This document shows, one piece after another, positions 1,378 through 24,930 of a stretch of DNA of 63,117 bases (positions are counted from its first letter, which is position 1; each line of letters starts with the position of its first letter). Both the position numbers and the translations under genes were made by a program. This stretch comes from Okeania sp. SIO3I5 (lineage in GTDB: Bacteria > Cyanobacteriota > Cyanobacteriia > Cyanobacteriales > Microcoleaceae): contig NZ_JAAHHT010000002.1 in the NCBI RefSeq assembly GCF_010672085.1, positions 5,421 through 68,537 of the forward strand, given 5' to 3'. The notes beneath the pieces are model-generated. The model did no database searches, was not told the DNA's origin, and saw nothing but the letters and a program-made list of their open reading frames with translations.

Positions 1378-2517
1378 GTGAATTGTTCCATAGTTAGTCC
1401 AGGACAAAATCTCCAATCTTGGCAAAAAACAGGGTTAGAATTAGTTGCCAATATTTATGGTGGAAGAGATGTAGTATTAGCAATTGACTTAACAGAAAGT
1501 GTAGGCTTAAATGATGAAGGTCGTATCCGCTTGCGTCAGATAGTTCAAGATAGTTTGCGACCTGGAGATAAAGTCTATGTTGTACCTTTTGCGACAATTG
1601 TTAATCCCCTCAAACCACAAATTAATCCCTTGACAGTTGAAGGGGCGGTTAAATTTAATGGCAAACAAGATATTAGTAAAATTTTGGAGTTAATACCGTT
1701 TAAAGCAAATTTAACTCTACAAAATACGGATGTTCAAAGAGCAGAATTATTTATTTATCAAAACCTAGCTCAGATTAATCAATGTCGCTTAGAAAAAAAT
1801 CAAGCGATTAAACCTCAGTCGGTAATTTGGATTACTGATGCTCCACTTTTAACTGCAGCAGGAATTGATTCAAATGTGTGGATAGAAACTCCGAGAGATA
1901 GCCCTTTTCGAGTAGAAAATTCTGAGGAAAGTGAACGGCGAATATCTTGGATTAATGCTTTACCTTTAAATAATAGAAAGCTGTTAATTAGAACAGAAAA
2001 TGGTGAAGAATATCAACTAGCAGTTGTGGATATTGCTCCTACTGTTCAAGAATTTTGTACGCCAGCACCGGGAGGCAGGGAAACTTGTTTAGTTAATTCT
2101 TATTTAGGGAAATTATTATGGCTACCTGGGTTAATTTTTTTGTTGGTTTTTATAGGGTTTATAGTGGGGGTGAAAAAATGGATGAGTCTGCAAAAAAAAT
2201 GGGAGTTAGTTGTTGATTTTACTGCTACTAAAATTGAGGAAGACCAAGTTTGTCGTTTGCCGAATAATAAAAGAATTGCTATTGGTGAATATGATGAATT
2301 TTGTGTTGATTCAATAGATACTCCCGGACCAGAAATCAGAGGTTTTTTAATCAGAAAAGGAAATCGACTTTATCTGGAACCAACTGGAGATGCAGAAATT
2401 TATCTTAATGGGAAAAAAGTTTCTATTCGTACTTTAATATCTAGTTCTCAAGTGAGGCTTAATTGTCCTTACGGAAGAAATCGCGATTATGAGATAATTA
2501 TCAAAATAAAAAAATAG
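1378..2517 (+). CDS. VWA-domain membrane protein with C-terminal FHA-like region
   Basis: A protein of about 379 residues. Near residue 37 there is DLTES, which matches the MIDAS metal-site pattern DxTxS of von Willebrand A domains, and the fold seems to fill residues 30-215. One membrane segment follows at about 243-265 (LLWLPGLIFLLVFIGFIVG). A cytoplasmic-side domain of about 100 residues at the C-terminus, with RIAIGEYDEF and a late YLNGKKV, is FHA-like by eye. The start is uncertain. A GTG at 1378 has no ribosome site, yet the frame stays open back to a TAA at 1324 and encodes an Arg-containing hydrophobic stretch that looks like a signal peptide. No ATG, GTG or TTG lies in that stretch, so a rare start, a sequencing error or a mutated start is possible. 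It lies 1 kb upstream of the tubulin-like gene on the same strand. Confidence 0.75.
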   Translation: MNCSIVSPGQNLQSWQKTGLELVANIYGGRDVVLAIDLTESVGLNDEGRIRLRQIVQDSLRPGDKVYVVPFATIVNPLKPQINPLTVEGAVKFNGKQDISKILELIPFKANLTLQNTDVQRAELFIYQNLAQINQCRLEKNQAIKPQSVIWITDAPLLTAAGIDSNVWIETPRDSPFRVENSEESERRISWINALPLNNRKLLIRTENGEEYQLAVVDIAPTVQEFCTPAPGGRETCLVNSYLGKLLWLPGLIFLLVFIGFIVGVKKWMSLQKKWELVVDFTATKIEEDQVCRLPNNKRIAIGEYDEFCVDSIDTPGPEIRGFLIRKGNRLYLEPTGDAEIYLNGKKVSIRTLISSSQVRLNCPYGRNRDYEIIIKIKK

Positions 2518-2524
2518 TATTAAA

Positions 2525-2910
2525 AGGTATAATTCAGCGTTCAGCTATCAGCTTTATTGCTTTTTAAGCAAGAATTAGGGTTGAGAGATTTCAAATAATT
2601 ACAGCAATTTCGGAGGTGCGTGAGATACAAAATTTTATTGTTAAAAACTAGAAGCTTGTTATTAATTTTGGTAACACAAGCATCTTGCTTATTACAGGCT
2701 GGAAGCCTGTGTTACAAGGTATGATTCAGCGTTCAGCTATCAGCTTTATTGCTTTTTAAGCAAGAATTAGGGTTGAGAGATTTCAAATAATTACAGCAAT
2801 TTCGGAGGTGCGTGAGGTACAAAATTTTATTGTTAAAAACTAGAAGCTTGTTATTAATTTTGGTAACACAAGCATCTTGCTTATTACAGGCTGGAAGCCT
2901 GTGTTACAGA
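2525..2910. repeat. 191-bp direct tandem duplication
   Basis: Two copies, at 2525-2715 and 2716-2910, differ at only a few bases. Each ends in a palindromic segment in which acacaagcatcttgc and ggctggaagcctgtgtta face one another, a hairpin type common in filamentous cyanobacteria. No gene is seen here. Confidence 0.9.
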
Positions 2911-3547
2911 GACAGAGATCAACCTTGAACTATACCTCATTTATCCTCATGCATTGCTGTAAAAGTAAAGATAAGTGTTCATTTCAGTTATCAGTACCTC
3001 TATGGAATAAGGAGGCTTGACATTAGGAATATTCTCTTTATTTTATCCCCTTAAAAGGGGAGGCTTTAGACCACAATTTTTCGGTCAAAATGTTTTTCTA
3101 TTGAGATAAAATATTTTTTACGTTTGTTATGGGAAGTAAACAAATTTTCTTTTCTTCCCTACTCCCTATTCCCTAAAATTTTTTATTGCGGTTCTTGAAA
3201 GAGAAATGATATTATTGCTGATAGCTGATAACTAATAACTGAATACTTACAGCGGATTCCAAATTTATGTTGTACAAATATTAATGATAAAACCTTCTTC
3301 AACAATTAATAATGAATAATGAATAATTAATAATTAATAATTACCTCTTCTTTTCAAGGAGAGGATTGACTAATCATGAAAATTTTTATTTATTATCCCC
3401 TATCCAAGGGGAGGCTTTAAACCAGAATTTTTCGGTAACACACCCTTTTATGCTTTCATAGATGTATCATACTAAGATAGAATCTGCTGTATAAGCTGAG
3501 AGTTAAAAGCTAATAGCTGAATACTTATATTAAAGGAGATAAAAACC
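2911..3547. other. Spacer with two copies of a dispersed 'aggctttaaacc' repeat
   Basis: No gene is visible. A partial repeat lies near 3047-3092 (ggggaggctttagacc followed by a ttcggt end). A fuller copy lies at about 3340-3436, with tacctcttcttttcaagg and gaggctttaaacc. Relatives lie at 27.56, 39.10, 46.77 and 57.40 kb. A ribosome site (aaaggag) at 3533 serves the next gene. Confidence 0.6.
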
Positions 3548-6500
3548 ATGGTTCAATCAACCAGTAAAGAACGCCAGTCTAGAGGAATTAATCGCACTAT
3601 TTGTATCGGAATAGGAGGTACTGGTAGAGATATTTTGATGCGAATTCGTAGATTAATTGTAGATAGTTATGGAGATTTGGAAAAACTGCCAATTGTGAGT
3701 TTTGTTCATATTGATACTGACAAATCAGCTAGTCAAATATCTGGTTTAAGAACTGGCAGTACATATCACGGAGTTGACCTTAGTTTTAAAGAATCTGAGA
3801 AGGTTAGTGCCACAATGAGTAGCAGAGATGTGGATAATTTTACTCAAGAATTAGAAAGACCTTCCACTTCTGAAAGAACAGGACCTTACGACCATATTCG
3901 TCGATGGTTTCCTCCTCAACTTAATCGGAATATTAAGGCAATAGAAGAGGGTGCAAAAGGAATTAGACCAATAGGAAGATTAGCTTTTTTTCATAACTAT
4001 CGCAAGATTCAAAAAGCAATTGAAATAGCGGAACAAAAAACTAGAGGAAATGAGGGTATTTTACTAAAAGCGGGGTTAAGGGTAGATGCAGGAGTAAATA
4101 TTTTTATTGTCGGTTCTCTTTGTGGAGGTACTGGCAGTGGAATGTTTTTAGATGTTGCTTATAGTTTGAGACATACCTACGGTAAGCAAAATACTAAAAT
4201 TGTTGGTTATTTAGTAATTAGTCCTGAGTTATATGGCAACAATGCTAATATGAAAGCTAATACTTATGCAGCTTTAAAAGAACTAAATCATTACACTACT
4301 CCTGGTACAAAATTTGAAGCTTGTTACGATATACAAGACTTAGTAATTGTTGAAGAAGAACGACCTCCTTATGATTATGCTTATTTGGTTTCTAACGAGA
4401 CAGCAGGAGGATATAAAATTCTTGAGCAACGTAAATTATGTAATGTTATTGCTCGTAAAATTGCTTTGGATTTTTCTGGAGAATTAGCACCTGTAGTTAA
4501 AGGGATGAGAGATAATTTTTTACAACATTTAATCCAGTATGATAGTCACCCTCGTCCTAATATTCAACGTTACTTAACTTTTGGCATGGCAGCTATTTAT
4601 TTTCCACGGGATAGAATTGTTCAAATAGCTTTAAATCGTATTAGTTTGAATTTAGTTGATTTCTGGTTAAATGGTGAAGGTCAAAGCCCAGATCCGGTTT
4701 TATTATTGGAAAGATTTTTACTTCAATTTCGCTGGCATGATGACTTGCAAAAACGAGATGGATTGAGTAGAAGATTAGCTGAATCTGTGGAAGAATATAA
4801 CAAGAATTTTAAAAGTACAATTGATGCTTGGAGAAATAAATTAGACAAGGCAATTTCTGAGTCTCAAAACAAGGATGACCGGATAGCATTACCACAACAA
4901 TTGCCGAGAGAGTTTCGAGAGCAATTTAGAAAGGTTATTCCCGGAACAACTGATAGTAGTAGAGGAGTTTGGTTGACAAGGTTGCAACAAATTTGTCCGA
5001 AAATTACAGCAGACTTTCAACAAAATATTGATAGTTTTATTCTGGATTTGCTAAGTCCGAGTAATGAAAATTTTTCTATTAGAAGTAGTCGGGAGTGGCT
5101 AGAAGCAATCAAAAACGAACTAAATAATTATCAACGAGAAATTGAAGAACAAATTGTAGATTTTAATGGCAGTAAGACATTAGAAGACCTAGAAAGAAAA
5201 TGGCAAGACGGGGAACAGATAATCGCAGATATTGAGAATAAATTTGAACTGCCTTTATTGGGAGGTAAGAATAGAGAATTTCAAGCTGAAGCTAAAAGAA
5301 TAGTCAGACAAATTTGCGATTTAATTAAACATAATTTCCACTTGGTAGTTTTCCAAGAAACTCTCGAAATAGTAAGAGATTTACAAAATCATGTTGAAAA
5401 TATTGCTAACCAACTAAGAGAATTTAGCAACTTAATCAATAACCTTAAAAGCGACTATGAAAAAGAACAGGCAGATTTAAAACAACTAGATTTTGATGAG
5501 ATGAGTGGAGAAGCTATTTTTGCCGAGGAAGATATCAATAACTGTTCTCAAATTTTACTCCCTCCCGAAGAGCTAAAGTCACAACTGGTACGACTAAGTT
5601 CGGAAATTACTAAACCATCTGGAGACGGAAAATCAATTGCAATTTTTCTCAGAGAAAAAGTCAGAGAAGAAGAGCAAGCAAAACAAGAAATTAATCTCAC
5701 AGTAGATCGGTTATTTGGAGTTCGGAGTACTAATATTGTTAATTCTGTAATTAAGCGTTTTCTGCAAAACTATTCTAGTACCGAAAGGAGCGATCGCTTC
5801 AAACAAATTATGCAGGAAGCTAAATCACTTTTACCTTTAGATTTTAATGCTCCTTACTTCAAAGATGACGATTCTAAATGCAGTCAATTAATAGGATTTA
5901 AAGATACCGATGATCAAGAAGTTAAACAATTTAAAAATATCTTGGTGCAAGATTTAGGAATTAAGGATCATACTCTCAAACCAACTCAAGCGGAAGACCA
6001 AATTTTAATAGTTAAAGAATATGCAGGTTTTCCCCTGAGACTAATTGCTAATATCGAGAAAATGAGAAATATTTACATTCGAGAAATGAATTCTCCTACT
6101 TCTTTTCTCCATAACCACAATTGGATTTTCTTTGCCGATATTATTCCTCCAGATGCAGCAATAATAGAAGAGTTAGAAGATATTTTTTATCCTTGTTTGG
6201 CTTTAGAATTAATTCAAAAAAATGGTGATAAGTTTGAATTTCCATATTACAATGATATGCGAGATGCTTATTACACTGCCGAACTTAGTTCATTTTGGAA
6301 TCAAGCTTTAGAAAAATTAGCTAATCGACAGGATATGACTGAAGCGTTGAAAAGTATTCTGGATCGAGAAGTAGAAAAAATAGACGAACAACTCTGGGAA
6401 AACCATTATTTACCGAAGTTGCAAAAATTTGTTAAACAAATTGATAATTTACCAGAAGATGATCTTAATTATCCTTATAAAGATACAGTAGTTGGAACAC

Positions 6501-6817
6501 CACCAACAACTGAAAATCCTGGAAAGGAAGGAGTTATCAATCGCTTTCGCCGTCGCATACAAGAAAAAGTAAAAAATGTACAATTACTTCAGTCAAAGTC
6601 TACTGTAAGAAAGGAAAATCAGGAAGTCATAAAAGATGAAATTATTGACATTGATGATGATTATTATTTCGAGAAGTCTCCAAATTATCGCGATAACCAA
6701 CAGACTTCAGGAGATGACCTGATGGAAAAATTAAAGGATTTAGAAAGGATGAAAGAAAAGGGAACTTTGACAGATGCAGAGTTCGAGGCAGCTAAGAAAA
6801 AGATACTAGGAATTTAA
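3548..6817 (+). CDS. Tubulin/FtsZ-like GTPase of the tubulin_2 type, with C-terminal SHOCT motif
   Basis: A 1089-residue protein. The N-terminus carries the nucleotide-site loop GIGGTGRD (residues 21-28). The tubulin/FtsZ signature GSLCGGTGSG lies at 189-198, in place of the canonical GGGTGTG or GGGTGSG. A segment YLVSNETAGG follows as in other large tubulin-like proteins. Residues from about 400 to 1030 are helical and charged, with likely coiled coils and no membrane segment. The last 35 residues (KLKDLERMKEKGTLTDAEF and the tail KKKILGI) match the SHOCT short C-terminal domain. The start is an ATG ten bases after aaaggag. The MotA-like gene begins 18 bp downstream, so they are surely co-transcribed. 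The family has been predicted to form filaments that remodel membranes together with VWA and OmpA-family partners; that role is inference here. Confidence 0.88.
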   Translation: MVQSTSKERQSRGINRTICIGIGGTGRDILMRIRRLIVDSYGDLEKLPIVSFVHIDTDKSASQISGLRTGSTYHGVDLSFKESEKVSATMSSRDVDNFTQELERPSTSERTGPYDHIRRWFPPQLNRNIKAIEEGAKGIRPIGRLAFFHNYRKIQKAIEIAEQKTRGNEGILLKAGLRVDAGVNIFIVGSLCGGTGSGMFLDVAYSLRHTYGKQNTKIVGYLVISPELYGNNANMKANTYAALKELNHYTTPGTKFEACYDIQDLVIVEEERPPYDYAYLVSNETAGGYKILEQRKLCNVIARKIALDFSGELAPVVKGMRDNFLQHLIQYDSHPRPNIQRYLTFGMAAIYFPRDRIVQIALNRISLNLVDFWLNGEGQSPDPVLLLERFLLQFRWHDDLQKRDGLSRRLAESVEEYNKNFKSTIDAWRNKLDKAISESQNKDDRIALPQQLPREFREQFRKVIPGTTDSSRGVWLTRLQQICPKITADFQQNIDSFILDLLSPSNENFSIRSSREWLEAIKNELNNYQREIEEQIVDFNGSKTLEDLERKWQDGEQIIADIENKFELPLLGGKNREFQAEAKRIVRQICDLIKHNFHLVVFQETLEIVRDLQNHVENIANQLREFSNLINNLKSDYEKEQADLKQLDFDEMSGEAIFAEEDINNCSQILLPPEELKSQLVRLSSEITKPSGDGKSIAIFLREKVREEEQAKQEINLTVDRLFGVRSTNIVNSVIKRFLQNYSSTERSDRFKQIMQEAKSLLPLDFNAPYFKDDDSKCSQLIGFKDTDDQEVKQFKNILVQDLGIKDHTLKPTQAEDQILIVKEYAGFPLRLIANIEKMRNIYIREMNSPTSFLHNHNWIFFADIIPPDAAIIEELEDIFYPCLALELIQKNGDKFEFPYYNDMRDAYYTAELSSFWNQALEKLANRQDMTEALKSILDREVEKIDEQLWENHYLPKLQKFVKQIDNLPEDDLNYPYKDTVVGTPPTTENPGKEGVINRFRRRIQEKVKNVQLLQSKSTVRKENQEVIKDEIIDIDDDYYFEKSPNYRDNQQTSGDDLMEKLKDLERMKEKGTLTDAEFEAAKKKILGI

Positions 6818-6835
6818 GATAAAGGAGTTTTAATT

Positions 6836-8458
6836 ATGATTGAATTATTCCAGCTAATTCCATTCCCATTGCTTATTTTGAGTATAGTATTAGTAATATT
6901 TCCCACTATATTTACTGCTATAGTGCGTATTCGACTCTACAAGCATTTAATATTTTTAAATGATAGAGTTAGAAGACTAATTAATGGGGAAAGTCCAGGA
7001 AAAAAAACCAGAATAATTGAGAATTTAGAAGCCAGATTTGAGAAAGCAAGTCAAAATTTAGAAGAAGTCAATACAGCAGCATTAGTAGATGGAATTTATA
7101 GCCAAGAAAAATTTGATTTTTTAGGATTTCGATTACGATGCCACCAATGGGATTACTTCTCTCAAGCATTACCTAACCTATTAATATCCTTTGGATTATT
7201 AGGTACTTTTCTTGGAATGACAATCAACTTATCAAGCTTAATTCAAAAAATTAATCAAGTTAAAACAACCAATACAAATGAATCAACCGATATAAATAAC
7301 TTACTTGAGCAATTAGAAGACCCAATCCAAGGTATGGGAATTGCTTTTATTACTAGCTTAATTGCTGTAGCTTGTAGTTCCTTATTAACAGTAATTAATC
7401 TCCAATGGAATACTAATTTGGCAAGAGAAGATTTAATCAGCTATTTAGAAGATTACCTAGATAATATTTTACAACCAAGAATAGAAGGTAAAAGCAGACT
7501 CGATAAATCTGTTAACCTCATGGTAAAACAGCAAAATGACTTCTTAAACAGATTTCATGAAAATGTGACAAATGCAGTGGAATCATCCTTGGGAGAAATA
7601 GCAAGAGAAATTTCCCAAGGTAACAGAGAAGCAGCTAACCTCGCCAGACAAATTTATGAAAGATTTACTGAATCTTCTGGAACAATATCCAGGGCAGCAA
7701 GTGAATTTGAATCGGTTATTAATAACTTTCAAAATATTATTGCTGATGAGATGAAACCTACGGTAAAAAAATTTAATCGAGCATCTAAAACATTTAAACA
7801 AAGTCAATTTCCTAAAAAATTATCAGAAGCTTCTCAAAATTTAGCTACCATCCAACAAAATTTTTCTAACTCAACTTCTGCTTTAGAAGAAACAGTAGAA
7901 GTTATGAAAGAATCATCAATTACCTTGAATAACAACAGCGAGACTCTAGGAAGTTTAGCAGAGGAAATTATCAACCTTAATCAAAATTATCGTGAGGTAC
8001 TAGAATCACATCAAATCAACCAACAATCTCTCCAAGAAATTATTCCTCAACTTAACGAAGGAGCAAACAATTTTGAGTCAGCATCCCAAATAATTCAAGA
8101 CCTACAGAATCAGATTCAGGTTAGAGAAGAAAGTCTGGTAAAGATACAATCAGAACTAGCTAATCTTGTAGAAACATTGAAAGAAAATTCCCAAGAAGTC
8201 AATACAGAGATTCAAAATTTTGGTAGCAATCTAATTGATAAATTAGTTGAACAGGTGGGTAATAACAATCAAAAATATCAGACTTTAGTAGAAAAGTTCG
8301 GCAGTGACAATCAGGAGGTTCAAACACTGCTAGAAAAAATTGAAGAATCTGTAGGTTATTTGAGTGACATAAAATCTAAGCTTGACCAGCTAGAATCAAC
8401 TTTAGAGTCACAAAATCTTGTGAGTAATATCCGAAATCTATTAAGAAAAAGTCAGTAA
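6836..8458 (+). CDS. MotA/TolQ/ExbB-like proton channel protein with long helical tail (ZorA-like)
   Basis: A 540-residue protein. One membrane helix lies at residues 8-30 and two more at about 112-135 (NLLISFGLLGTFLGM) and 168-192 (GMGIAFITSLIAVACSS), the arrangement of the MotA/TolQ/ExbB family. The GLLGTFLGM and GxxxAFxTSLxAV patterns are typical. From about residue 215 to the end the protein is a long amphipathic coiled coil rich in Gln, Glu, Asn and Ser. This makes it resemble ZorA of the Zorya anti-phage system more than a flagellar MotA. The ATG follows aaaggag. It is 18 bp after the tubulin-like gene and 119 bp before its MotB/OmpA-type partner. No Zorya nuclease or helicase (ZorC, ZorD, ZorE) is present, so calling it Zorya is not justified. 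Confidence 0.85.
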   Translation: MIELFQLIPFPLLILSIVLVIFPTIFTAIVRIRLYKHLIFLNDRVRRLINGESPGKKTRIIENLEARFEKASQNLEEVNTAALVDGIYSQEKFDFLGFRLRCHQWDYFSQALPNLLISFGLLGTFLGMTINLSSLIQKINQVKTTNTNESTDINNLLEQLEDPIQGMGIAFITSLIAVACSSLLTVINLQWNTNLAREDLISYLEDYLDNILQPRIEGKSRLDKSVNLMVKQQNDFLNRFHENVTNAVESSLGEIAREISQGNREAANLARQIYERFTESSGTISRAASEFESVINNFQNIIADEMKPTVKKFNRASKTFKQSQFPKKLSEASQNLATIQQNFSNSTSALEETVEVMKESSITLNNNSETLGSLAEEIINLNQNYREVLESHQINQQSLQEIIPQLNEGANNFESASQIIQDLQNQIQVREESLVKIQSELANLVETLKENSQEVNTEIQNFGSNLIDKLVEQVGNNNQKYQTLVEKFGSDNQEVQTLLEKIEESVGYLSDIKSKLDQLESTLESQNLVSNIRNLLRKSQ

Positions 8459-8577
8459 TAAGCTAACAGGTTTTCTCATTTTTTAGAAGGCAAACAGCAA
8501 TAATTATTACTTGTTGTAGTTGTATTGAATTCTCAAAAAAAATTATATTTTTAAGCAAATATTGAGGAGTAAAAATT

Positions 8578-9339
8578 ATGAGTCGCCGCTCACGATATTC
8601 AAGGTTAAATAAAACTCTCAATGTCTGGCAATCTTTTACAGATTTGATGTCTAGCGCCTTTATAATTTTGAGCTTATTTTTGTTCCTGGCACTACTTAAA
8701 TCGGGAGTGTTAAATAAAAATATTGGTATAGTAAATATTCAACTTCAAGAGGTTATAAGAGAGAATAAAATATTGAATAATGAATTAATAAAAAAAGACT
8801 CAGAAATTTGTAGATTAAAATCAGAAATTTCTAGCTTAAAATCAGAAATTTCTAGCTTAAAATCCCAGCCACCAATTGAAATTACAGAAGCATCTAACCG
8901 CAAATTTGCATCTGGTAGTGCCGAATTATCTGATGGATTAATTAATTTTATTCGCAACGATTTAGTAAAGCAAATCGAAAATTATGCTCAAGGAAAAGAA
9001 GGCTATATCGTACAAGTAATTGGTCATACTGATGGTCAACAAAATCTTTTTCAAGGAGGTAATTTAGATGATGAGTTAGAAAGAGTTGCTATTAGTAATA
9101 ACAATATTAGTAATCTCACGCCAGGTTCAAATGCAGACTTAGGTTTAATGCGCGCTCTAGCAGTAGTAAAAGAACTTGAAAAAAACCCTCGTTTAAAGCA
9201 ACTAGGATTAAAATTCCGAGCTTATTCAGCAGCACAACTTTATCTACCTTCAGGAGAATATGCGAGAGTAGAGCGCAGTCCACAGCAACAAAGACGGCGA
9301 ATAGAAATTCGTTTCAGTCCACCTGCTGAGAGGCAATAG
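8578..9339 (+). CDS. MotB/OmpA-like protein (ZorB-like stator partner)
   Basis: A 253-residue protein. A basic cytoplasmic N-terminus is followed by one membrane helix at about 22-44. Asp22 (FTDLMSSAF) sits at its start, where MotB and ZorB carry the proton-binding aspartate. A short coiled coil follows, in which KSEISSL is repeated. An OmpA-family peptidoglycan-binding domain spans about 95-250, with VIGHTDGQ and a final RSPQQQRRRIEIRF. The ATG follows gaggag. Together with the preceding MotA/ZorA-like gene it should form an ion-driven stator anchored to the cell wall. It is the last gene of the cluster. Confidence 0.87.
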   Translation: MSRRSRYSRLNKTLNVWQSFTDLMSSAFIILSLFLFLALLKSGVLNKNIGIVNIQLQEVIRENKILNNELIKKDSEICRLKSEISSLKSEISSLKSQPPIEITEASNRKFASGSAELSDGLINFIRNDLVKQIENYAQGKEGYIVQVIGHTDGQQNLFQGGNLDDELERVAISNNNISNLTPGSNADLGLMRALAVVKELEKNPRLKQLGLKFRAYSAAQLYLPSGEYARVERSPQQQRRRIEIRFSPPAERQ

Positions 9340-10504: not shown

Positions 10505-11782
10505 ATGATTAACGCTAACTTTCTAGCTGATACTGACCCCTTAGTAGCCGAACTAATTCAAAAAGAATACGGACGCCAACAAGACCACCTAGAACTAATT
10601 GCCAGTGAAAATTTTACCTCACCAGCAGTAATGGCCGCCCAAGGTTCCGTACTCACCAACAAATATGCCGAAGGTCTCCCAGGTAAACGTTACTACGGCG
10701 GCTGTGAATTTATAGACGAAATCGAACAAATAGCCATAGATCGTGCAAAAGAATTATTTGGAGCTGCCCATGCCAATGTACAACCCCATGCTGGTGCGCA
10801 GGCGAACCTTGCCGTGTTCCTCACCTTGTTACAACCAGGGGACACCATCATGGGAATGGACTTATCCCACGGTGGACATTTGACCCACGGTTCCCCAGTG
10901 AACATTTCTGGTAAATGGTTCAAAGTTCATCATTATGGTGTAAGTCAGGAAACAGAAGCTATAGATTATGACCAAGTTCTAGAATTGGCAAAGGAACATA
11001 AACCTAAACTTTTGATTTGCGGTTACTCTGCCTATTCTCAGATAATTGATTTTGAGAAATTCCGGGCGATCGCCGATGAAGTAGGAGCTTATTTATTAGC
11101 GGACATTGCTCATATTGCCGGGTTAGTAGCAACAGGTCATCATCCTAACCCACTCCCTCACTGTGACGTAGTAACAACTACCACCCACAAAACCTTAAGA
11201 GGGCCACGAGGCGGTTTAATCCTGACCCGCGACCCAGAATTAGGGAAAAAATTCGATAAATCAGTATTTCCCGGAACTCAAGGCGGTCCTTTAGAACACG
11301 TTATTGCAGGCAAAGCAGTCGCATTTGGGGAAGCTTTAAAGCCAGAATTTAAGACTTATTCCGGCCAAGTTATCGAAAATGCTACTGCTCTAGCAACCCA
11401 ACTGCAAAAACGCGGATTGAAAATAGTTTCTGGCGGTACGGAAAATCACGTTATGTTAGTGGATCTAAGATCAGTAAGTATGACAGGCAAAAAAGCAGAC
11501 AAATTGATGAGTGGGGTAAATATTACTGCTAATAAAAATACTGTACCTTTTGACCCAGAGTCTCCTTTTGTTACCAGTGGCCTCCGACTAGGTTCTCCAG
11601 CAATGACAAGTCGAGGGTTGAAAACTGCTGAATTTACAGAAATAGGCGATATTATTGCTGAAAGATTACTAAATCCAGAAGATGAAGGGGTAGCTCAAAA
11701 GTGTCGAGACAGGGTAGCATCATTGTGCGATCGCTTTCCTCTCTATCCTCATCTGATGGCTAAAGTTCCTAGTCTAGTCTAG
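10505..11782 (+). CDS. glyA: Serine hydroxymethyltransferase
   Basis: A 425-residue PLP enzyme that interconverts serine and glycine while loading one-carbon units on tetrahydrofolate. The N-terminus ([20 protein letters not shown]) and [11 protein letters not shown] segment, the glycine-rich [10 protein letters not shown], and the PLP-lysine motif [14 protein letters not shown] are all present and colinear with the family. The length is normal. The ATG at 10505 is the first in frame. A hairpin suited to a terminator follows at 11825. Confidence 0.97.
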
Positions 11783-11824
11783 TTTCATCTAGCAACTAGA
11801 TAGGAGTAAATCAGTGTAAATAAT

Positions 11825-11858
11825 AATAAAACGGCAGTCATTTGACCACCGCTTTATT
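11825..11858 (+). terminator. Putative terminator after glyA
   Basis: Arms aataaaacggcagtca and tgaccaccgctttatt pair over 16 positions, with three A-C or G-U type exceptions and a 2-base loop, 43 bp after the glyA stop. The arm itself supplies the T-rich side; there is no long U tract after it. Confidence 0.45.
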
Positions 11859-12897
11859 AGTTGCTCCTTTGTGAGCAATATTATGGGCTAAGTTTGCTTT
11901 GAGAATGCTTAATAGACTTGGTACTGAAGTAGTTTTTTATTCTGGATAAATCAGCTAACATTCTTCCTCCAAGCAATAAATAGGGTTTGCTGAAAAAGTA
12001 TTTTTTAAGGAGTAGGGGAGCGGGTAGGGACGTTGCTTGAGCATTAATGCGTTTTCCGTTCCGGAATGCTCCGCAAAAATGTCGCGCAGCGTTAACGTTT
12101 GCGGAGCATTCCCTATATGAAAGTTGTGCGTTAGCTAAACGTCCGTACGGGAGTAATTTTTTTGCCCAACAATGCGCCAAAAATGCTAACTTTTTGAGCA
12201 TGAAGAGCTGAAAACCAGGTACTCTTTAAAATACCTAAAAAGGGTAAAATATTTATTGATAAATGCTTTAAGATTTAATTAGGGCTTGCTGATTAAATTT
12301 GAAAGCATTGATAGCTCAAGCTTCAAGGCTTTTTCGGCTCAAAAAAAGTGTCAAAAAATTACTAAATTAATCTTGAAAACTTTGAATTTTTACTCCGAAA
12401 AAATTGGAAAAATGTAGAAAAATTAACGGCTGTAACTATTGCCTATTGCCCATTACCCATTCCCTGCCTTCACCAACATACTTTTTCAGTAAACCCTAAT
12501 TAGCAAGCCCTAAATTAAAGTTTTAAGTCTCCTCTTTCATGGATATAAAAAAGGAAACTTCAGATTTAAACCCTTCTATTTAAGTAGAAGATACTGATCA
12601 CTGAATAGGATAGCACTATAGTTTTAAATAATTATATTTATAGGGCATCTATAAATCAAAAATTAAACCTTTATTTAGGGTTAGTTTCGGCTGTCGCCGA
12701 CTTGAATTGGCGGGAATAATCTCACAAAATAAAATAATTTTCTCTAGTTACCGTAACCCACCGAATACTAGATATGTGAGGCATTTATTTAGATTTATTT
12801 TACAGAATACTTTCTTGGTATAACTGCCCAACTATTAGAAAAAAAAATTAATTTTATACAATCAAAACCTATTGACTTCTAGTGGCAAAATATTCTG
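11859..12897. other. 1-kb spacer with palindromes and a MITE, no credible gene
   Basis: A strong 15-bp hairpin joins ggaatgctccgcaaa (12063-12077) to tttgcggagcattcc (12098-12112). A fragment with gggtttgctgaaaaag lies at 11983, and a complete element of that family at 12279-12500. An AT-rich leader of the next gene follows. A 106-codon minus-strand frame here overlaps the hairpin and is not credible. Confidence 0.6.
12279..12500. repeat. MITE-like element, 'ttagggcttgctga' family, copy 1
   Basis: About 222 bp, with left end ttagggcttgctgattaaa and right end ctttttcagtaaaccctaa as imperfect inverted repeats. The interior has caaaaaaagtgtcaaaa. The same architecture is found at 52278-52528 and, inverted, at 58475-58686. 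Confidence 0.65.
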
Positions 12898-22932: not shown

Positions 22933-24930
22933 CTAATGACCAACTAATTTATCCCGCAAATATTTAATTCTATCCCGCAATTTAGCTGCCTCTTCAAATT
23001 CTAAATTTTTCGCCGCTTCTTTCATCTGACTTTCTAACTTTTTAATCAACTCTGGAACGTCATCCAAAGACAACTCATCTACCTGTTCATAAACCTCTTC
23101 CAACTGTTGAGAATTTAAACGTCGCGACACATCCAAAAATGCCAAAATTGCATTACTTTGTTTTTTCACAACAGGCTTCGGCGTAATATTATTCATCTTA
23201 TTATATGCCAACTGAATTCCTCGCCTTCTTTCCGTTTCATCTATGGCTTTAATCATACTATCTGTCAAATTATCTGCATATAAAATAGCCTGACCCCGGA
23301 CATGACGTGCTGCCCTACCAATAGTCTGAATTAAAGAACGTTCTGCTCGTAAAAATCCCTCTTTATCCGCATCTAAAATAGCTACTAAAGAAACCTCTGG
23401 TAAATCCAAACCTTCCCGTAATAAATTCACCCCAATTAACACATCAAATTCTCCCTCTCGCAACGCCTGCAAAATCTCAATTCTTTGAATAGAATTAATA
23501 TCAGAATGCAAATAACGAACCTTCACATTTTGCTCCTGCAAATATTCAGTCAAATCTTCAGCCATTCGCTTAGTTAAAGTTGTAATTAAAACCCTCTCTT
23601 CCAACTTAACCCTTTCCCTAATTTCACCTAATAAATCGTCAACCTGACCTTCAGTCGGACGCACAAAAATTTCCGGGTCAATAACACCAGTCGGACGAAT
23701 AATTTGCTCAACAATTCTATCCTCAGATTTTTCTATTTCCCAATTTCCAGGAGTAGCAGAAACCAAAATACATTGATTAACTTTTTGCCAAAATTCTTCA
23801 GATTTTAAAGGTCGATTATCTGCTGCACTAGGCAAACGAAAACCATGCTCAATTAAAACCCTTTTCCTAGCTTGGTCACCATTATACATTCCTCGAATTT
23901 GCGGAACAGTCACATGAGATTCATCAATAATTAATAACCAATCTTTTGGAAAATAATCAATCAAACATTCCGGCGGTTCCCCCGCTTTTCTACCTGCTAA
24001 ATGCCGAGAATAATTTTCCACTCCATTACAATATCCCACCTCCCGCAACATTTCTAAATCGTATCTACTACGCTGTTCTAAACGTTGAGCTTCTAACAAC
24101 TTTCCTGTTTTTTCTAATTCCTGTAATTGCTCATTTAATTCCACTTCAATATCATTACAAGCCTCTTCTAATCTTTCTTCAGGAGTAACAAAGTGACGCG
24201 CTGGATATACATTTAAAGATTCTAAACTTTGGATAATTTTTCCAGTTACAGGGTCAACATAACGAATAGCATCTATTTCATCCCCAAAAAATTCTACCCG
24301 AATAATTCTATCCTCATAAGCAGGTCCGATTTCCAAAACATCGCCCTTAACTCTAAACTTTCCTCGACCTAAATCTAAATCATTTCTGGTGTATTGAACT
24401 GTCGCTAAATCCCTCAAAATTTGTCGTTGATCTATTTCTTCTCCTACTCGCAAAGGAATAGCTGCTTTTAAATATTCTCCCGGAATTCCTAAACCATAAA
24501 TACAACTAATCGAAGCCACAACAATTACATCCCGCCGTTCAAAAAGAGACCGAGTTGCCGAGTGACGCAACATATCAATCTCATCATTAATAGCAGCAGT
24601 TTTTTCTATATATGTATCCGTCACCGGAATATAAGCCTCCGGCTGATAATAATCATAATAACTAATAAAATATTCCACAGAATTATCAGGGAAAAAATCC
24701 CTTAACTCATTACACAATTGAGCAGCCAATGTTTTATTATGAGCCAAAACCAACGTCGGTCTGCCAACATTTTCAATTACAGAAGCTATAGAAAAAGTCT
24801 TACCCGTACCAGTAGCTCCTAGTAATGTTTGAAAATTATGTCCAGTCTGGATATTAGAAGTTAATTGAGCGATCGCTTGAGGTTGGTCGCCAGTAGGTTT
24901 AAAAGGAGCTTGTAAACAAAATTTTTCCAT
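22933..24930 (-). CDS. uvrB: UvrABC system protein B (excinuclease subunit)
   Basis: A 665-residue damage-recognition helicase of nucleotide excision repair. Walker A GATGTGKT is at 38-45, the beta-hairpin region has [12 protein letters not shown], the Walker B-type box is [10 protein letters not shown], helicase motifs include [27 protein letters not shown] and QTIGRAARH, and the last ~40 residues form a UVR motif ([17 protein letters not shown]) for UvrC contact. The length is normal. It is alone on the minus strand; no LexA-type box could be recognised upstream. Confidence 0.98.

Follow-up and report, generated by a model that had tools for sequence, protein, structure and literature searches.

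The genome of the cyanobacterium Okeania sp. SIO3I5 raises the question of why a tubulin-like GTPase should be encoded side by side with a pair of proteins resembling ZorA and ZorB, the motor components of the Zorya defence system. Within a 63,117-nucleotide stretch of contig NZ_JAAHHT010000002.1 (positions 5,421 to 68,537; hereafter the window, in whose own coordinates positions are given), the open reading frame (ORF) listing places four genes on the + strand, encoding a membrane protein with VWA and FHA-type domains, a Tubulin_2 protein, a ZorA-like protein and a ZorB-like protein. Their coordinates agree with those of an earlier first-pass annotation, as do the 18-bp gap between the tubulin-like and ZorA-like genes and the position of the VWA gene about 1 kb upstream of the tubulin gene (the gap measures 1030 bp). 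With slightly better than even confidence, we propose that the four genes encode one envelope-spanning, ion-driven and wall-anchored motor that acts on or through the tubulin-family GTPase. In such a machine, two ZorB-like axles anchored in peptidoglycan would stand inside a ring of five ZorA-like subunits, the flow of ions would turn this ring together with its long cytoplasmic tail, and the tail may act on the GTPase through a coiled coil inserted into the GTPase. The direction may also be the reverse, with a polymer of the GTPase gating or positioning the motor, and the VWA-FHA protein could tether the GTPase to the membrane or sense the envelope. Contact between motor and tubulin, the direction of force, filament formation and the purpose of the machine are matters that we infer, as is the passage of a signal from the motor tail to a tubulin polymer.

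The identity of the motor pair is the best starting point. The ZorA-like protein (540 residues; 6836..8458, + strand) had been described as a MotA/TolQ-type channel with a long tail, a description borne out by its top PADLOC match, ZorA1 (E 1.1e-15), and by the top PDB match of its family profile, ZorA of 8vvn (E 3.9e-11). NCBIfam ZorA_2 matches under its cut-off (E 1.1e-9), and Pfam returned no channel match. The pore helices (residues 112-187; 7169..7396) include T124, P163 and S174, invariant in all 35 aligned rows, and are followed by a cytoplasmic, coiled-coil-like tail of about 350 residues (7403..8455), in which Pfam matches are of the coiled-coil type only. The ZorB-like partner (253 residues; 8578..9339, + strand) matches PADLOC ZorB1 (E 4.4e-6) and, under cut-off, PF00691 (E 0.0097), with an OmpA-type wall-binding domain at about residues 110-246. 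The aspartate previously noted at the start of the helix in this MotB/OmpA-type protein is Asp22 (codon 8641..8643), a putative ion-carrying residue that stands just before the single hydrophobic segment (residues 27-45) and does not vary in any of 36 aligned rows. H150, T151, D152, L188, R192, R240 and R245 are invariant in the same rows. According to the available part of PMC11890865, which cites structures 8vvn and 8vvi, ZorB D24 is crucial for Zorya defence, and peptidoglycan binding requires H186, L199, R203, R254 and R259; the order of these residues and the spacings L-4-R and R-5-R agree with those of the ZorB-like partner, as a motif match and not a structural alignment. Because the ion-path and wall-binding residues are kept, the 'OmpA-like' partner can be read as a motor axle. 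Judged from sequence, the two proteins are members of the 5:2 ion-driven motor superfamily, and homology to ZorA/ZorB would make their complex a pentamer of ZorA-like subunits around a ZorB-like dimer.

These residues also bear on the reading of Makarova and Koonin, who in 2010 proposed an association of vWA, OmpA and FtsZl1 proteins (PMC2875224, available part), from which a membrane-remodelling system can be drawn with the motor pair as a static scaffold between wall and membrane. We consider this very improbable, since the ion-path aspartate and the pore threonine and serine are invariant and a mere scaffold would not need them.

The presumed partner of the motor is a Tubulin_2 (FtsZl1) protein of 1089 residues (3548..6817, + strand; PF13809, E 1.9e-111). 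The GGTGSG signature on which it had first been recognized as tubulin-like occupies residues 193-198, and G193-G198 of this GTP loop are invariant in 50 rows. A sequence search of the PDB found no solved member of the family. In an AlphaFold2 (AF2) model (pLDDT 84.5), the best PDB matches identified by Foldseek are tubulins and CetZ, at E 7.7e-6 and worse; CetZ superposes with Z 24.2 over 303 residues (root-mean-square deviation, rmsd, 3.7) and tubulins with Z 21.1-22.7 over 319-352 residues. These alignments run from residue 14 to about residue 850-870, and because the target chains are only 330-441 residues long, any such alignment has to skip residues 380-775, which are helical. The tubulin fold, put forward for checking in the first-pass annotation, is thus present in the model as a predicted two-domain fold interrupted by about 395 helical residues. 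The GTPase domain and the start of the second tubulin domain would lie at residues 14-375 (3587..4672), the helical, coiled-coil insertion at residues 380-775 (4685..5872; its exact position is deduced from the model), and what appears to be the rest of the C-terminal tubulin domain at residues 778-868 (5879..6151). By the order of strands and helices, the insertion presumably falls between elements H9 and S8 of tubulin. D332 precedes the strand at residues 342-351, is Asp in 49 of 50 rows, and is what we take to be the T7 acid. Of the C-terminal SHOCT domain also claimed for this protein (residues 1060-1087; 6725..6808), a match exists (E 4.9e-5, 23.4 bits) but falls under the Pfam cut-off of 27, and is suggestive only.

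The model differs in one respect from what has been written about the family. The available part of PMC2875224 states that T6-H7 of FtsZl1 could not be placed and that its C-terminal domain has no detected similarity to known domains, and, according to a 2023 study as far as available, Tubulin_2 proteins have neither of the Pfam domains FtsZ_C and Tubulin_C. The model of the Okeania protein instead suggests that a C-terminal tubulin domain is present, split by the coiled coil.

The first gene of the set (1378..2517, + strand) encodes a 379-residue protein assigned by its AF2 model, structure matches and conserved residues. The window protein itself has no Pfam match, and VWA_2 is matched by 6 of 38 rows of its family (best 2e-4). 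The model (pLDDT 84.6) contains a VWA-type domain (about residues 24-206), a transmembrane (TM) helix (247-265) and an FHA-type domain (273-379), so that the earlier description of a VWA protein with a membrane helix was right and had missed the C-terminal domain. The VWA domain matches that of CLCA1 (6pyx; VIA Z 9.6) and the FHA-type domain that of Rad53 (6c4u; VIA Z 11.4 over 101 residues, rmsd 2.4); a sequence search found no solved structure for the family. The metal-ion-dependent adhesion site (MIDAS) motif, DxTxS, is kept in 38 of 38 rows, as are its metal-site residues D37, T39, S41 and D118; D154 is kept in 37 of them. Two cysteines, C227 and C237, do not vary. Phosphothreonine binding by FHA domains involves an Arg after a GR-type Gly, together with a Ser-x-x-His motif. 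These residues are not kept here: Gly303 is present in 38 of 38 rows, the residue after it is E in 27, G in 6 and D in 4, and the conserved columns of the 38 rows contain no S..H pattern. Under the positive-inside rule of membrane topology, the lysines after the membrane helix would place the FHA domain in the cytoplasm and the VWA domain outside. Upstream of the VWA domain, the 40 loci inspected show no clear signal peptide. At L055 the VWA protein begins with a short stretch that is possibly signal-like, and in the window and its close relative L085, 17 mostly hydrophobic codons without a standard start codon lie upstream of the VWA gene. Another cyanobacterial tubulin class has VWA partners whose membrane helix and C-terminal domain can be aligned with those of this family (hhalign 50%, E 1.6e-4); by eye, the N-terminal region of one such partner includes a hydrophobic stretch resembling a signal.

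Signalling proteins commonly contain VWA and FHA-type domains, which makes it conceivable that the four proteins form a signalling module, with the VWA-FHA protein as envelope sensor, the GTPase as a non-polymerising switch and the motor as a gated ion channel that gives its output as a leak, and with neither filament nor torque. FtsZl1 proteins are far from FtsZ, and the available part of PMC2875224, where T6-H7 could not be identified, considers an absence of filaments, as the less likely case. We nevertheless judge such a module unlikely: both tubulin domains are found in the model, and an acidic residue is conserved close to the T7 position, features that a GTPase able to assemble should have.

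Whether the four genes form a unit was addressed by searching 386 cyanobacterial genomes for PF13809, which gave 75 genomes with a match, 71 of them over the cut-off; the weak matches are probably FtsZ. Neighbourhoods were taken around strong matches (those below about 36 bits were left out) and scored with profiles built from the window's own four proteins. A Tubulin_2 gene or gene piece is present at 77 loci, the window included; 39 of these, in 39 genomes, have a ZorA-like gene in the neighbourhood, a count that excludes locus L066 with its weak ZORA match more than 6 kb away, and all four families occur together in 36. The co-occurrence expected in the first-pass annotation therefore holds for the window's clade. 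A separate collection of named relatives comprised the best 80 of at least 353, with cyanobacterial titles and a bias to the window's clade. Among these 80 loci, the exact order VWA-TUB-ZORA-ZORB is found on one strand in 59, and all four families are found somewhere in 68. Eight of the other 12 meet a contig end where the missing gene is expected, and at locus L208 the tubulin is broken and ZORB absent. Chance pairing is excluded because gene order is conserved. Spacing is likewise tight, with a TUB-ZORA gap of 100 bp or less in 30 of 35 loci (L066 left out) and a VWA-TUB gap of 8-22 bp in 28 of 37 loci measured, the window included. The 1030-bp gap of the window is unusual, and repeat comparison of the sequence shows that it holds two copies of a 192-nt direct repeat (2517..2900). 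Among the named relatives, the ZorA-like protein varies more in length (434-817 residues; n=73, pieces under 430 left out) than the tubulin (1020-1201 residues; n=73, pieces under 1000 left out), and the tail of the ZorA-like protein seems to change length fast. As a separate observation on the tail gene, locus L058 (1617-4415) carries eight copies of a 300-nt repeat at 97-100% identity and locus L101 (12629-13963) four 300-nt copies, two of them at 100% and the others at 72-73%, while that of L056 has no 300-nt repeats, though the tubulins of all three loci are nearly identical.

The descent of the unit was followed in a quick tree of 74 tubulins (rows under 700 residues left out). The 38 operon-linked tubulins, those with an adjoining motor or VWA partner, make up one side of a branch with SH-aLRT 100, and none of 500 shuffles scored as low. 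Bacterial family labels change 22 times over the whole tree, against a shuffled mean of 43.9. On this evidence the operon-linked tubulins appear to form one clade that largely tracks bacterial family, and descent of the operon would be mostly vertical. Presence is patchy, and the copies at L103 and L104 are decayed, which indicates that loss is common. Operon genes are fragmented in several genomes (L103, L104, L124, L180, L181 and L208), suggesting that the operon is dispensable. Flanking gene clusters recur in up to 16 of the 80 named loci. Read by eye, without a label from any tool, they include psbO (13 loci), a sigma factor (13 loci), ycf48 (10 loci), rubredoxin (10 loci), ndhC (9 loci) and ndhK (8 loci). 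Some operon loci thus sit among housekeeping-like genes. The role of the operon is likely to be an envelope or cytoskeletal function, mostly vertically inherited and dispensable, such as force transmission or the positioning of envelope processes, and not that of a dedicated phage-defence nuclease system.

The kinship of the motor with ZorA and ZorB makes anti-phage defence an obvious alternative, and the first-pass annotation had treated the operon as a Zorya variant. The likeness to the Zorya ZorA5ZorB2 complex (available part of PMC11890865; 8vvn, 8vvi, 8qyd) lies in a ring subunit with a long cytoplasmic tail and an axle with an ion-path aspartate and a peptidoglycan-binding domain. In contrast to Zorya, the operon combines its motor with a tubulin-like GTPase and a VWA-FHA protein, and Pfam, PADLOC and NCBIfam detected no ZorC, ZorD, ZorE or nuclease among its four genes. 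No Zorya component was present among ten further ORFs scanned between 9683 and 31094; one of the ten (22936-24930) has helicase-type matches, the best being PbeA (6.7e-12). A ZorC1 search of the Okeania genome gave no match, although control queries likewise matched nowhere. For comparison, 20 ZorA-like loci away from known tubulin loci were chosen with the family profile, a count that is not a rate; a tally of ZorA-like genes in 104 of the 386 genomes was inflated by coiled-coil matches and not used. One chosen locus, L130, is a true Zorya system (ZorA1 1.9e-279, ZorB1 2e-81, ZorC 2.5e-200), beside which the homologues in the operon match far more weakly (1.1e-15 and 4.4e-6). L131 groups with L130 in a ZorB tree of 53 rows, and four other chosen loci have ZORA matches without ZORB. 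The two Zorya rows are far from all others in that tree (100/100), and this long, fully supported branch separates the ZorB family of the operon, as a distant subfamily, from cyanobacterial Zorya. Together with the lack of ZorC, ZorD and ZorE, it led us to reject membership in Zorya, and the relationship of variant is not supported. The available part of PMC12505986, on MotAB evolution, omits ZorAB from its phylogeny.

A defence function outside Zorya proper has to be weighed separately. A phage that perturbs the wall might switch on the motor, whose tail would trigger the tubulin-like effector to disrupt the membrane or the division of the infected cell. In favour of this, ZorA/ZorB are the closest matches to the motor, the distribution is patchy with decayed copies (L103, L104, L124), vWA-tubulin genes stand beside BrxL and other defence genes in two Thermaceae plasmids, and PADLOC matches among those listed for 142 operon-flank proteins include mad3 (7), mad8 (5) and a type II methyltransferase (1). 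These flanks, however, match about as many families as those of motor-free tubulin loci (71 families for 142 proteins versus 66 for 126, a rough comparison with 25 families per table listed), and the same PADLOC comparison gave no clear enrichment for defence islands. The tubulin tree largely follows bacterial family, neither a nuclease nor ZorC, ZorD or ZorE accompanies the motor, no Zorya component was seen among the ten neighbours scanned, and no close relative was found on a plasmid or phage (ten plasmid records, best 27.7% identity; one phage record, 26.8%). Mostly vertical descent, the flanks and the missing effectors make phage defence the less likely function, and we regard it as improbable.

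Coupling of tubulin and motor extends beyond cyanobacteria. In plasmid records, all four Deinococcus plasmids with the tubulin read tubulin, ZorA-like and OmpA/ZorB-like in sequence, the same order as in the Okeania operon, and the public annotation of Deinococcus sp. QL22 names a tubulin-like protein, MotA/TolQ/ExbB and an OmpA family protein. The ring subunits of the two groups are homologous (hhalign 96%, E 3.5e-9), and the axles match more weakly (hhalign 48%, E 1.8e-4). A tubulin tree constrained to join Deinococcus with the operon clade was not rejected (p-AU 0.194), and the coupling may have arisen once or twice. The Deinococcus operon differs in an extra gene for a protein of about 108 residues upstream of the tubulin, in further downstream genes and apparently in its first gene. 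The full run at L214, L215, L216 and L219 is a protein of about 420-450 residues, the protein of about 108 residues, tubulin-like, ZorA-like, OmpA/ZorB-like and a large protein, which has LRV/DUF2336 in L214 and L215; the next gene encodes a beta-helix protein in three of the plasmids and a 'kinase' in L219, and at L216 an IS630 element lies inside the tubulin gene. A more specific proposal is that in at least two bacterial phyla a wall-tied, ion-driven rotary motor either drives a membrane-located tubulin-family filament mechanically or takes its position from it, the inserted coiled coil of the tubulin serving as a lever that engages the rotating tail. This we offer tentatively, expecting it to fail somewhat more readily than to hold.

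Several observations weigh against the proposed machine. First, 14 of the 20 chosen loci hold a ZORA-ZORB pair while the stretch examined around it contains neither a tubulin nor a VWA gene; one of the 14 (L112, contig C223, 8723-12775) is a second motor pair in the Okeania genome itself. In the ZorB tree these orphan pairs are interspersed with tubulin-linked ones, with 5-6 label changes, from which it seems that on several occasions a motor has lost the tubulin context, moved out of it or acquired it. A motif in the proximal tail (of the form S.F...L...Q..FS.S), which by eye had looked specific to tubulin-linked motors, was rejected as such: by pattern count it is found in 29 of 40 tubulin-linked motors, 10 of 16 orphan motors and 0 of 2 Zorya motors, and its occurrence in linked and orphan motors makes it a feature of the motor family to which both belong. 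Second, within the 80 named loci no ORF matches two of the four families, hence no gene fusion was found; tubulin occurs with no motor gene seen at L190 and L195, and L152 has TUB then ZORB without ZORA. In one genome VWA-TUB is retained while a ZorA-like gene sits at another locus, where no ZORB was found (L087, L114), and motor length does not track tubulin length (Spearman 0.07, p 0.57, n=66). Third, in the unconstrained tubulin tree Deinococcus does not fall together with the operon clade of cyanobacteria, and homology between the first Deinococcus gene and the VWA protein was not found (hhalign 0.7%). Finally, the Foldseek TM-scores of the tubulin model are modest (0.33-0.49, target-normalised, in the top 50), and the topology of the VWA protein is unsettled.

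The proposed coupling can be set beside earlier work on FtsZl1/Tubulin_2 systems. The available part of PMC2875224 describes the same GTPase family with vWA and 'OmpA-like' partners and includes cyanobacterial members. Unlike in that account, where the OmpA partners are described as outer-membrane barrel proteins, the partner here is a ZorB/MotB-type axle that comes with its own ZorA-type ring subunit. TolQ, ExbB and MotA have no occurrence in the available main text, and the unnamed families A1-A2 and B1-B9 of that study could include the ZorA-like gene. In the open-licence literature, no report was found of a Tubulin_2 protein with a ZorAB/MotA-type motor or of a coupling between a tubulin-family GTPase and a 5:2 ion motor; as available, PMC12904381 has tubulin only in a reference on phage spindles, and a 2026 survey of BREX has no occurrence of the word. 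A review of gliding, likewise as available, attributes cyanobacterial gliding to type IV pili with no occurrence of tubulin, and for this reason no motility claim is made for the operon. With its 'OmpA-like' partner read as a motor axle in the operon clade, the 2010 prediction gains a concrete, testable mechanism, and within this clade the GTPase gains what the model predicts to be a complete tubulin fold that contains a coiled coil. The operon would link tubulin-like proteins to envelope energy, and the tubulin-plus-motor pairing in cyanobacteria and Deinococcus suggests a machine that connects membrane energy to a cytoskeleton-like protein. It also suggests that long-tailed ZorAB-type motors are not only parts of defence systems, and include an old, mostly vertically inherited cyanobacterial machine.

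Tubulin_2 genes also occur in other settings. On plasmids of Meiothermus and Allomeiothermus (L212, 6258-14335; L218, 6384-15476), the order is vWA, tubulin-like, hypothetical and brxL, with a transposase before brxL at L218; nearby genes are HmaC/DUF499 at one of these loci and carry WYL, helicase and methyltransferase annotations at the other. The vWA-tubulin pairs in these two BREX-like loci indicate that the GTPase family enters defence-like loci. Two Azospirillum plasmids have the tubulin with other neighbours. A further arrangement is found at L065, L067, L068, L069, L105 and L106, where a VWA protein of about 600-617 residues and a tubulin-like protein of about 910-926 residues accompany a third protein of about 920-1030 residues, which has no family match where scanned. 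Six neighbours scanned around this set gave no PADLOC match, and the third gene of class C loci showed no relation to the third gene of the Thermaceae loci. The tubulin of the same set groups with the tubulin of the Thermaceae defence loci (99/95). At L094, a divergent ZorA/TolQ-type gene of 461 residues (10755-12140) adjoins a class B tubulin gene. In the window itself, positions 1-1112, upstream of the VWA gene, hold four tandem copies of a 262-nt repeat at 63-100% identity and a spacing of 282-285.

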